Positions 2,843 to 6,997 of a stretch of 7,437 nucleotides of DNA are shown here, piece by piece (the stretch's first letter is position 1; every line of letters begins with the position of its first letter). Under the pieces are notes generated by a model, which did no database searches, was not told the origin of the DNA, and worked only from the letters and a program-made list of their open reading frames with translations. Made by a program: the position numbers and the translations under genes. The DNA lies in contig PATE01000075.1 in assembly GCA_002712305.1 (NCBI GenBank), forward strand, positions 30,798 to 38,234. Reading direction: 5' to 3'. Origin of the DNA: Gemmatimonadota bacterium (GTDB lineage Bacteria > Latescibacterota > UBA2968 > UBA8231).

Positions 2843-3362
2843 TTGGAAGCGACCAAGATTCTTCTCGACGAGAGTGAGCCAGCCTCGTGCCCGACGTTGA
2901 CCAAGGGGGAGTATCGGTATGACTTCGGGGACACGGTGGGCATGCCCCCTGATGCCGATGCACACTCTTGGGCACGGGTTCGTTCCGGCCCCCGTTCACG
3001 CTGGGGGTCTCCGTTATCATGGCGCCGCACCCTTGGTCAGCCACCTGCTGCAGGGAGATCACATCGAGGCGCGTGCCTATCAGCAGCTGGAATGCTTTGA
3101 GGCAGGCGTGCAGTTTGCCCGCAGTGAGTGCATCGTCCCTGCCCCGGAGGCCAACCACGTGGTCAAAGGTGCCATCGACGAGGCGATCCGTTGTCGAGAC
3201 ACTGGAGAGGAAAAGGTCATCGCTCTCAACCTCTGTGGACACGGCCATTTCGACATGGCTGCCTACGCCGCCTACTTCGCCGGTGAACTCGAAGGACATG
3301 AATTCACGGACCAGATGCTCAACGAAAACATGAAGGAACTTGAAGCGCTCCCGACGCTGTAG
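2843..3362 (+). pseudogene. Decayed TrpB2-like (tryptophan synthase beta-like) PLP enzyme: internal deletion plus frameshift
   Basis: A TTG at 2843, preceded at 8 bases by the strong purine tract AGGGGAAGGGAG (2823-2834), opens a frame [12 protein letters not shown], which matches the extreme N-terminus of TrpB2-type proteins (LLDESEIP...). At codon 12 it jumps straight to [19 protein letters not shown], which in TrpB2 proteins lies near two thirds of the chain. About 250-280 residues are therefore absent, including the PLP-binding lysine and glycine-rich phosphate loop. After the Met codon at 2942 the frame is broken in CCCCC (2945-2949). The homology continues in the frame starting at 2949 with [32 protein letters not shown] and CGHGHFD, ending at the TAG at 3360-3362. 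The serine usual before GHGHFD is Cys. Full-length relatives are about 430 residues. The remnant cannot be an active enzyme. A real decayed gene is most likely; a collapsed assembly is the main alternative. Confidence 0.85.
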
Positions 3363-3415: not shown

Positions 3416-4549
3416 ATGGCCTTGACGTTGAAGTCGCCGGAGCAGACGCGTTACGACGCGATATCGCTCGGGGAAGTGATGATGAGGATCGATCCCGGTG
3501 CGGTGCCCACGGCGAGGGCTCGAACCGCCCGAATCTGGCACGGGGGCGGCGAGACGAACGTTACTGAGGGCCTCAGTTACTGTTTTGGTTTGCGTACGAC
3601 AGTCGTGACGGCCCTTGTGGACGACGGGATTGGACGCAACATCGAGAATCAGATGCGCGAAGCCGGGATCGATACGTCTCACATCATCTGGTTCGACAAC
3701 TCGGGTTCGGGCGTGTTCGCCACCGATGCAAAGGGCACCCTCCACAATGGCATCAACTTCACCTGGGCAGGCAAGGGCGTGCTGCCGTCGGTGACCGAGT
3801 ACTATCGCGCACACACACCAGTGCGGGAGGTCGGCCCCGGCGATGTTGATTGGGATCAGTTGTTTGGCGAGGCCAATGGAACGCGCTGGTTCAGCACGGG
3901 CGGGATCTACACCTTGCTGTCACCGAAAACGGCAGACCTCGCCTTGGAGGCGATGAAGAAGGCCCAGGAGCACGGCGCGGGCACGTCCTTCGATCTGAAC
4001 TATCGCTCGAAAGTGGAGCCGGACAAGAATCGCGCTCGTGAAATCAATCGTGGCATCGTGCCGCACGTGGATTTCCTCGTGGGTAATCAGGATGACTTTG
4101 ACGATGCTCTCGGGTACGAAACGCCGAATGTGCCCAAGGATGCCTCCTTCGATGAGTGGTTGGCGATCTATACCGGCATGTTGCGGCAGGTGGCCAAGGA
4201 CTATCCGAACATCAAGTACATAGGCACCCAACTGCGTGGCGCTCTGTCAGCGGATCGAATCGATTGGGGTGCCGTTCTCTACGATGTAGATACCGACCAG
4301 ATCCACCAGGCGGCAGTGCGCGAGAATATCGAAATCGCCGACCGCACCGGTGGTGGAGACTCCTTCGCCTCGGGCGTCATCGCTGCCCTGCTTCAGGGCA
4401 AGGGCGCTGATGAGGCGGTACAGTGGGGTGCTGCCCACGGAATTCTCGTACAGGGCACCATCGGCGACACGTCGATGGTCAAGCAATCAGACGTAGAGAA
4501 AGAAGTCGCTCGGGCGATCAAGGGGGGCGGCGTATCCGCGCTTCGTTAG
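3416..4549 (+). CDS. PfkB family carbohydrate kinase, 2-keto-3-deoxygluconate kinase-like
   Basis: This 377-residue protein is a ribokinase-fold (PfkB) sugar kinase most like 2-dehydro-3-deoxygluconokinase, which phosphorylates KDG with ATP before aldol cleavage. Seen here: the N-terminal strand YDAISLGEVMMRIDPG (13-28), the substrate-side glycine motif HGGGETNVTEGLS (42-54), SFDLNYRSKV (191-200) as in KDG kinases, NQDDF (224-228) at the usual N-x-x-E region, and the PfkB signature DRTGGGDSFASG (309-320) with Asp315 as the catalytic base. It is longer than the usual 300-340 residues because of insertions around residues 95-150 and 235-300. The ATG is well supported by AAAGGAAGGA (3401-3410) at a 5-base spacing. 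It follows the TrpB-like remnant by 53 bases and precedes a hairpin at 4597. The kinase assignment is firm; KDG as substrate is an inference, and other 2-keto-3-deoxy or keto sugars are possible. Confidence 0.88.
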   Translation: MALTLKSPEQTRYDAISLGEVMMRIDPGAVPTARARTARIWHGGGETNVTEGLSYCFGLRTTVVTALVDDGIGRNIENQMREAGIDTSHIIWFDNSGSGVFATDAKGTLHNGINFTWAGKGVLPSVTEYYRAHTPVREVGPGDVDWDQLFGEANGTRWFSTGGIYTLLSPKTADLALEAMKKAQEHGAGTSFDLNYRSKVEPDKNRAREINRGIVPHVDFLVGNQDDFDDALGYETPNVPKDASFDEWLAIYTGMLRQVAKDYPNIKYIGTQLRGALSADRIDWGAVLYDVDTDQIHQAAVRENIEIADRTGGGDSFASGVIAALLQGKGADEAVQWGAAHGILVQGTIGDTSMVKQSDVEKEVARAIKGGGVSALR

Positions 4550-4596: not shown

Positions 4597-4632
4597 AGGA
4601 GGGTGGCCCCCGGGTCTCCCTCCTTCTCTTTT
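4597..4632 (+). terminator. Probable rho-independent terminator or attenuator after the kinase gene
   Basis: AGGAGGG (4597-4603) pairs perfectly with CCCTCCT (4618-4624), extended by a possible G-U pair (4596/4625), across a 14-base loop. The 3' arm is followed by TTCTCTTTT. It lies 48 bases after the kinase stop and just before the transporter start, so it would end the upstream transcript or act as an attenuator with read-through into the transporter gene. Confidence 0.5.
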
Positions 4633-4651
4633 GTGCCGCTGTGCAGGTGGG

Positions 4652-5941
4652 ATGTCGGACGCATCTTCCCGTAAAGTCTACGAAGGCTGGCGACGAAACT
4701 TCTACACCCTTTGGGTGGCAGAGGTCATGGCCATCATCGGATTCCAGGCCGTTCAGCCCTTCCTGCCGTACTACATCCAGGAATTTGACGTGGCGGATCT
4801 GGATGAAGCACTTCTATGGGCAGGGCGGATGGGGACCGCAGCAGGTCTGGCGATGGCCATCTCCTCACCGATTTGGGGGACTCTGGCCGATCGATTTGGC
4901 CGTAAACCGATGGTCGTTCGCTCCATGCTCGGTGGTGGCATCGCGGTCCTGCTCATGGCCTACGTGCAGACGGTGGAGCAGTTGCTCTGGGCCCGTGTGA
5001 TCCAGGGCGCCTTAGCAGGCACGGTGACCGCCTGCCTGACGCTCGTCTCAACCTCAACCCCGCGATCACACGTCGGTTACGCCCTGGGCCTGATGCAAGG
5101 CGCGTTCATGCTGGGCGCCTCGGTGGGACCTCTGCTCGGGGGGCCGCTGATCGAACAGTTCGGCTACCATGCCTGCTTTCTCTACAGTGGGGTCACAGTC
5201 GTTGCCGCAGGTTTCGCGGTCCAGATCTGGGTGCGCGAAGACTTTCAGCGTTCGCAGCTGGTGGAGACGTCGGCGAGATATCGCCTGCCTGGCAGAGATG
5301 TGGGACGGCTGCTGAGGATCCGCGCCTTCCTGATTCTCGTGGTGAGTGTGACGTCCATGTCATTCACCTTCGGGTTCATCATGCCCGTCGTACCCCTTTT
5401 TCTACAGGAGCTGGCCGGCTCAGATCACGGGAGTATCGTCTCTCTGGCGGGTGTGATCTTTGCCATCAGCGGTCTGGTGGGGGCCGTATCGTCAGCGGTC
5501 ATGGGCAGATTCAGTGATACCGTCGGTCCGAAGCGCGTTCTGGTCTGGGGCCTCGTAGCAGCGGGCATTTTCTATTGTGCTCAGGGATATGCTCAGACGG
5601 TCATGACCCTCGGCATTCTTCTCGTCTTCAGTGGTATCGCGACGGGGGCCATCCGGCCGGTGGCGAATGCCCTCGTGGCACGGATCATCGACGAGGCGGA
5701 CCGGGGCAAGGCGTTCGGAATCATGACGAGCGCCGCCGCCCTCGGCTGGGCTGCCGGTCCGCTCGGCGGCAGCTGGGTGGGGGCAACTTGGGGCCTTCGT
5801 TCGGTGTTCTTCGTCACGGCTGGCCTGTTTCTACTTGTCGGACTCTGGGTCTGGCGCGCCATGGATGAACCGGCTTCTGCCTCTGGACATCGCTTGCCGC
5901 AGATGCTGCGCACCTGGCAGCGTCGCCTCGGCCGAATGTGA
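4652..5941 (+). CDS. Major facilitator superfamily (MFS) transporter, DHA1-like
   Basis: This is a 429-residue integral membrane protein with about 12 hydrophobic segments in two halves of six. Seen here: loop 2-3 motif A GTLADRFGRKP (76-86), a motif C-like helix GAFMLGASVGPLLGGPL (150-166), an inter-domain loop rich in Arg around residues 195-225, and a weaker motif A copy GRFSDTVGPKR in the second half. This matches proton-coupled drug/sugar antiporters of the DHA1 type, so it may export a compound or import a sugar. I chose the ATG at 4652 (MSDASSRKVYEGWRRNF), with AGGTGG close upstream. A TTG at 4631 would add seven residues but lies in the T-rich tail of the upstream hairpin and has no ribosome binding site. 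It is 102 bases after the kinase and converges on the dehydrogenase gene. The substrate is unknown. Confidence 0.9.
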   Translation: MSDASSRKVYEGWRRNFYTLWVAEVMAIIGFQAVQPFLPYYIQEFDVADLDEALLWAGRMGTAAGLAMAISSPIWGTLADRFGRKPMVVRSMLGGGIAVLLMAYVQTVEQLLWARVIQGALAGTVTACLTLVSTSTPRSHVGYALGLMQGAFMLGASVGPLLGGPLIEQFGYHACFLYSGVTVVAAGFAVQIWVREDFQRSQLVETSARYRLPGRDVGRLLRIRAFLILVVSVTSMSFTFGFIMPVVPLFLQELAGSDHGSIVSLAGVIFAISGLVGAVSSAVMGRFSDTVGPKRVLVWGLVAAGIFYCAQGYAQTVMTLGILLVFSGIATGAIRPVANALVARIIDEADRGKAFGIMTSAAALGWAAGPLGGSWVGATWGLRSVFFVTAGLFLLVGLWVWRAMDEPASASGHRLPQMLRTWQRRLGRM

Positions 5942-5956
5942 ACGACGTCGCCAGAG

Positions 5957-5995
5957 GAACAGCCAGATAGAACAGCTAGACAGAACAGACATGGG
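5957..5995 (+). repeat. Three tandem 13-base units beginning GAACAG
   Basis: GAACAG starts at 5957, 5970 and 5983, an exact 13-base period. The first two units (GAACAGCCAGATA and GAACAGCTAGACA) differ at two positions. The third keeps only the GAACAG core and then runs into the GC-rich palindrome. It lies just after the transporter stop codon, in non-coding DNA. Confidence 0.65.
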
Positions 5996-6023
5996 GACGG
6001 AGTCCACGAACCCCGTCCCCCAT
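5991..6023. repeat. GC-rich palindrome between convergent genes (REP-like or transcript-end hairpin)
   Basis: GGGGACGG (5993-6000) is a perfect inverted match to CCGTCCCC (6013-6020) around a 12-base loop. An outer AT/AT pair (5991-5992 with 6022-6023) is reached by bulging C6021. No T-run follows on either strand, so it is not a classical intrinsic terminator. Its place between two convergent stop codons fits either a bidirectional transcript-end structure or a REP-like mobile palindrome. Confidence 0.6.
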
Positions 6024-6043
6024 TCCGTCATATTCTGAGCTTG

Positions 6044-6997
6044 TTAGCGATTCTTGGCAGCCTTCTTTTTCGCAACCTTCTTCTTGGCTTTTGACCCGGA
6101 GCGCCCTGGGAAGGTCAACTCGGCGACGCCCGATTTGTCGAGTTCACCCTGGCCAATCGCGATCATACGATCGAACTGCGCCTTGGAGGCGCGTGCCAGA
6201 GGCAGGTCGAGTTTCTTCTCGCGGGCAATCTTGAGCGCGATGCCTGAGTCCTTGGCGGCGTGAGCCGCAGAGAAATAGCACTCATGATCGCGAGCGACCA
6301 TGTCTTCGCCGTCGGTCTCAAGCACACGAGAATTCGCACCGGTCTGAGAGAAGATCTCCATCAACAGTTTCAGATCGAGGCCCAGTGCCTTGCCCATGCC
6401 CAGTCCCTCGGCAAGACCGGCGGTATTGATGTTCATCACCATATTGACCAGGGCCTTCACCTGAGCCGCTTTGCCCGTGCTTCCCACATAACGAAGGTCA
6501 ACGCTCATCGCGTCGAGTAGGGGACGGCACTTGTCGAAGACGGGCTTCTTGCCTCCACACATGAGGTAGAGGGTTCCTTTGCGCGCCTGGGTGATGGAAC
6601 TGGCCATGCACCCTTCAAGGGCACGTGCTCCGACCTTGGCGGCACGCTTCTCGACTTCGATATGTGTTGCTGGGCTGATGGTGGCGCAATTGATGAAGAC
6701 CTTGCCCTTCACCTTCCCTGCCAGCAGGCCATCTCCGCGTGCGGAGAAGATGTTCTTCATCGCCTTGTCATCGGTGACGACGGTGATGATGTAGTCTGCT
6801 GCGGCCGAAACATCCGACAGCTTCTTGGCTGCCTTGGCGCCGACCTCACGGCCCAGCGATGTTGCGGCCTTTGTGTTGATGTCGAAGACGGATGTGACGG
6901 GAAATCCCACATCCTTCAGGTGTCGGGCGATGTTGGCGCCCATTCGACCGAGGCCGACGACGCCGACCGTATAGTGCGCTTTGCGCACTGGTGGCAT
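6044..6997 (-). CDS. 3-hydroxyisobutyrate dehydrogenase / tartronate-semialdehyde reductase family NAD(P)-dependent enzyme
   Basis: This 317-residue beta-hydroxyacid dehydrogenase probably interconverts a 3-hydroxy acid and its semialdehyde. Seen here: the Rossmann loop VGVVGLGRMG (G15, G17, G20), a second-strand acid in SVFDINT fitting NAD-type binding, FINCATISP (101-109), GKAAQVKALVN (175-185) with the catalytic Lys181 and Asn185, and AAKDSGIALK (247-256). The substrate signature normally DAPVSGG reads EGCMASS (128-134), so the substrate may be unusual. The C-terminus carries a lysine-rich tail, KAKKKVAKKKAAKNR (303-317). The ATG at 6997 is preferred because CAGGAG lies six bases upstream in the mRNA; an ATG at 7018 adds seven residues without a ribosome binding site. 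It converges with the transporter gene and diverges from the DUF342 reading frame. Confidence is high for the family, low for the substrate. Confidence 0.88.
   Translation of the reverse strand: MPPVRKAHYTVGVVGLGRMGANIARHLKDVGFPVTSVFDINTKAATSLGREVGAKAAKKLSDVSAAADYIITVVTDDKAMKNIFSARGDGLLAGKVKGKVFINCATISPATHIEVEKRAAKVGARALEGCMASSITQARKGTLYLMCGGKKPVFDKCRPLLDAMSVDLRYVGSTGKAAQVKALVNMVMNINTAGLAEGLGMGKALGLDLKLLMEIFSQTGANSRVLETDGEDMVARDHECYFSAAHAAKDSGIALKIAREKKLDLPLARASKAQFDRMIAIGQGELDKSGVAELTFPGRSGSKAKKKVAKKKAAKNR
6973..6989 (-). promoter_or_regulatory. Perfect 7-bp hairpin just inside the dehydrogenase coding start
   Basis: AGTGCGC (6973-6979) and GCGCACT (6983-6989) form a perfect inverted repeat with a 3-base loop. 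In the mRNA the hairpin begins eight bases after the ATG at 6997, within codons 3-9. This is where stable structure can slow translation initiation. The structure is visible; a regulatory role is only a possibility. Confidence 0.35.

Follow-up and report, generated by a model that had tools for sequence, protein, structure and literature searches.

A probable recent trpB2 pseudogene within a conserved amidohydrolase–dehydrogenase–kinase cluster

Between a dehydrogenase gene and a sugar kinase gene of a Gemmatimonadota bacterium lies a locus that starts and ends like a gene for TrpB2, a PLP-dependent protein, and lacks most of what should lie between. Does this locus encode a shortened protein, was it shortened during assembly, or is it a gene in decay? 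We analyzed the locus within a window of 7,437 nucleotides, the whole stretch of DNA considered here (G000:C96:30798-38234, from an assembly of 146 contigs that is 90.9% complete). All genes discussed in the window are encoded on the forward strand. Upstream of the locus are an Amidohydrolase_2 gene (1085-1915; PF04909), which is lactonase-like although the lactonase models score below cut-off, and an intact gene for a Gfo/Idh/MocA-type dehydrogenase (1955-2824; PF01408). Downstream are an intact gene for a PfkB-family sugar kinase (3416-4549; PF00294 and KDG-kinase-like models) and a gene for an MFS transporter (4631-5941; PF07690).

A genome of the same genus, G020, retains the gene order of the window, including the transporter gene, at approximately 75-79% DNA identity (contig JABJJN010000018.1; L046). 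In G020, the slot between the dehydrogenase and kinase genes holds an intact 456-aa TrpB2 with a TTG start in the same place. This protein exceeds the cut-offs of both TrpB2 profiles, scoring 730.4 bits against NF009057 over positions 2-438 of 441 and 636.7 against TIGR01415, and its nearest solved chains are TrpB-type (6hul_B, 4qys_B, and 6hte_B). The window copy fell below both cut-offs, with 172.6 bits against NF009057 (cut-off 366) and 144 bits against TIGR01415 (cut-off 518.85). The two loci also differ further downstream, where L046:8993-10161 encodes a 2-hydroxyacid-dehydrogenase-like protein between the MFS transporter and a HIBADH-like gene; the window has no such gene at 5925-6051.

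Alignment with the syntenic intact gene (L046:5047-6417) revealed that the window copy lacks exactly 849 bp, or 283 codons (L046:5078-5926). Codons 1-12, with the TTG start (2843-2878; aligned from L046:5047 on), are joined directly to codon 295/296 of TrpB2. Because 849 is an exact multiple of three, this first junction is in frame. These observations bear out the original prediction, made from the window alone, that the 12 N-terminal codons of TrpB2 had been fused in frame to its C-terminal third through an internal deletion of roughly 0.8 kb from a full-length gene at this operon position. Whether related clusters carry a full-length gene of about 1.3 kb had been named as a check, and genes of 1.37 kb do occupy the same slot in relatives. 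At the junction (2874-2878), one blastn block ends at 2877 and the next starts at 2874, and the flanks overlap by GTGA relative to L046; this overlap becomes 3-5 nt (GTGA/GAG) once silent differences beside the junction in other relatives (TGT or TGC, GAA or GAG) are considered. The GAG at 2876-2878 is thus indeed common to both partners, as had been noted. The microhomology-mediated deletion proposed on that basis would be compatible with such a short overlap, which does not prove it: by our own arithmetic, an overlap of this kind arises by chance at approximately 2-5% of random junctions.

The fusion had also been read as continuing exactly in frame to 3362, and this part of the prediction fails. 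A first C-terminal stretch (2876-2944; NF009057 positions 291-322) is read in phase with the TTG start. Relatives then encode GGN ATG followed by ACN CCN and a leucine codon (GGNATGACNCCN), whereas the window reads GGC ATG CCCC CTG ATG and is two bases short after 2944; only four C (2945-2948) remain of the six bases. This frame-shifting lesion lies approximately 66 nt past the deletion junction. It could be a homopolymer contraction, but loss of 'AC' from ACC CCC CTG would account for the sequence equally well. From there, the C terminus of TrpB2 carries on in the frame of an ORF at 2919-3362, as a second stretch (2949-3362; LMPMHTLGH...EALPTL, stop TAG) that accounts for the 172.6-bit match to NF009057, at positions 314-440, and is 88% identical to G020. 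The locus as a whole (2843-3362) spans 520 nt, which is not a multiple of three. The sole frame readable from the old start (2843-3100) comprises 85 codons and a stop at 3098-3100; approximately the first 34 codons are TrpB2-like and the remainder are not.

The deleted codons 13-295 include both the PLP lysine (SHKPN, residues 110-114 of the G020 protein) and the glycine loop (GGGSN, residues 265-269), and the window copy has neither. Judged from its sequence, the predicted product cannot be a TrpB2 enzyme. An intact orthologue at the same locus, together with disabling lesions in the window copy, identifies the trpB2 locus as a pseudogene and not as a gene for a shortened protein.

The remnant has accumulated few amino acid changes. 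With both frames read, comparison of the remnant with G020 gave pN of 0.061 and pS of 0.84, and the five neighboring genes gave pN of 0.055-0.116 and pS of 0.64-0.77. Because substitutions in the remnant resemble those in functional genes, the breakage is recent, the gene having stayed under constraint through almost the whole period after G000 and G020 diverged. The remnant differs at two of the 59 positions at which 97% or more of TrpB2 homologues share a residue (G to C and F to L); 71 of 79 homologues show zero departures at these positions, and the two changes may mark the onset of decay. We also considered present selection on the remnant and rejected it, the low pN/pS having been inherited from before the loss.

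Could the lesions be a product of assembly or consensus calling, the organism's own trpB2 being whole and its core having been skipped when the contig was built, possibly from mixed strains? The window comes from a single metagenome-type assembly, and the 11 ambiguous bases on its contig all lie just upstream (C96:29024-30797), the last of them directly before the first base of the window. The contig ends C58 and C133 (L128 and L129) overlap by 3.1 kb at 99.4%, a sign of strain mixture, contigs of two relatives, G017 and G024, also break inside trpB2, and a near-undecayed remnant is what an assembly fault would leave as well. We nevertheless consider an artefact improbable, because it would require two separate lesions in one gene of a contig on which 26 of 29 orthologues are unbroken, and because an overlap of 3-5 bp is far below the size at which repeats collapse. 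Moreover, no other contig carries the missing core, and trpB2 has also eroded in G021 and disappeared from several relatives. The count of unbroken genes comes from a frame test along the 38-kb contig C96, with the 29 orthologues from G020 that have 240 aa or more. For 27 of them a single frame covered at least 80% of the length, and one of these 27 had an internal stop. General frameshift noise in the assembly is therefore not supported. Breakage is unusual on C96, though trpB2 is not the sole broken gene: two DegT-type aminotransferase-like genes (L130:1525-1923 and L130:3441-4724) are also broken, one being truncated and the other carrying an in-frame TAG. As for C58 and C133, the same PALP gene occurs at both ends, divided between two frames, and the two ends are probably unmerged strain variants.

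We regard it as highly improbable that the short form still functions, be it as the 85-codon peptide, as a C-terminal TrpB2 domain made from an internal start (2919-3362), or as an RNA spacer in the operon. The start site is still present, and both a Shine–Dalgarno-like sequence and the position between the dehydrogenase and kinase genes are evident from the sequence itself, in agreement with the prediction that the ribosome-binding site and operon position had been kept. The C-terminal frame is open, and pN/pS of the remnant is low; selection before the loss, however, accounts for the latter. A functional short form would also have to do without the PLP lysine and the glycine loop, in a reading frame that is not TrpB2 past approximately codon 34. 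Homologues with the same short form had been named as a check; among the 25 genomes sampled from the family, none other carries it, and other lineages have lost the remainder too. The locus is very probably what is left of an accessory gene for a PLP-dependent TrpB2 in the conserved amidohydrolase–dehydrogenase–kinase cluster, turned recently into a pseudogene by the 849-bp and 2-nt deletions.

The state of the slot varies widely across the family sample, in which G014 could not be scored. TrpB2 is intact in eight of the 25 genomes: G020, G001, G015, G016, G019, and G023, along with G017 and G024, in which the gene is divided between two contig ends and is otherwise whole. The breaks in G017 (L159/L140) and G024 (L158/L142) lie at approximately codons 276-292, near the right end of the deletion in the window, which could reflect polymorphism or chance. 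The slot in G021 retains approximately 60 C-terminal codons with frame breaks, a more decayed remnant, and G013 has perhaps a 5-codon scar of the trpB2 end (LPTL-stop), which may be a chance match. In 13 genomes (G018, G022, and eleven of genus g3), trpB2 is absent while the dehydrogenase and kinase are kept, and the two genes are separated by 31-68 bp or by other inserted genes. At L148, L153, L156, and L157, from relatives in genus g3, the slot holds genes for an AAA ATPase and a DUF4276-like protein; the pair in G008 matches PADLOC HEC-01A and HEC-01B, making it a candidate anti-phage defense system, and the pair in G003 looks broken.

A flanking-gene tree, the backbone of which is weakly supported, requires at least five changes of the slot between intact and lost states. 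The TrpB2 proteins of the family form one clade (SH-aLRT 99). The dehydrogenase occurs in 46 of 47 genomes of the class; beyond the family, strong TrpB2 matches occur in only two class genomes, both on a contig other than that of the dehydrogenase. Since the dehydrogenase is class-wide and, among the class genomes examined, TrpB2 occupies the dehydrogenase–kinase slot in one family only, TrpB2 appears to be a family-specific addition that was lost repeatedly. The simplest history is that trpB2 entered the slot once, close to the family's base, and was then lost repeatedly, although genus g3 may never have carried trpB2 there.

A search of all contigs found no TrpB2 core elsewhere in the G000 assembly, and relocation of the core to another genomic site was rejected for this reason. 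The sole other TrpB in G000 is a canonical trpB1 that adjoins trpA (on C89). Because the host retains both genes, tryptophan synthesis need not suffer. TrpB2 proteins of the 'outside operon' group (trpB2_o) usually occur alongside trpB1 (PMC1854888), and for characterized TrpB2 enzymes, catalysis with indole and either O-phospho-L-serine or serine is known, as are use of O-phospho-L-serine and tight binding of indole (cited in PMC11917138). The G020 orthologue resembles this group in its profile scores, in its location outside a trp operon, and in belonging to a family whose members mostly have trpB1, but the family copies reside in a sugar-type cluster, and the window copy has lost the catalytic two thirds and the reading frame. 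By analogy, an accessory role for the intact protein, the loss of which would be tolerable while trpBA remains, fits the pattern. The intact ancestor had been proposed as the missing step of the pathway encoded by the cluster. As a general claim we rejected this, because many genomes of the family keep the dehydrogenase and kinase but have no TrpB2. It also seems unlikely that the operonic TrpB2 carries out a side reaction on the cluster's substrate instead of tryptophan synthesis, with its loss marking lineages that dropped the substrate or gained another route.

Our literature search on pseudogenes in these lineages returned nothing useful. Compared with bacterial deletion and frameshift pseudogenes that have a surviving paralogue, the locus shows the same short common ends, frameshift, retained trpB1, and graded stages in relatives, with no essential difference; the one notable point is that loss recurs at a single operon slot. 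In Geobacter sulfurreducens, likewise, one of two trpB-type genes is frameshifted and the other kept, but there trpB1 decays and trpB2 stays (PMC1854888), the reverse of the situation in G000.

These comparisons suggest a course of events in which TrpB2 would have been dispensable where trpBA is present. The deletion that took out codons 13-295, and with them the PLP lysine and the glycine loop that binds phosphate, may have run through short repeats; the 2-nt deletion past the junction destroyed the frame. The rest would be trimmed later, as in the relatives with only 31-68 bp between the neighboring genes. The fate of trpB2 in the window is ordinary gene decay, and within one family operon erosion can be seen at several stages, from an intact gene through a fresh pseudogene with two lesions, a short remnant, and a possible scar to clean absence. 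It also cautions against building a pathway around a gene that happens to lie in a cluster, since the rest of this cluster continues without TrpB2.
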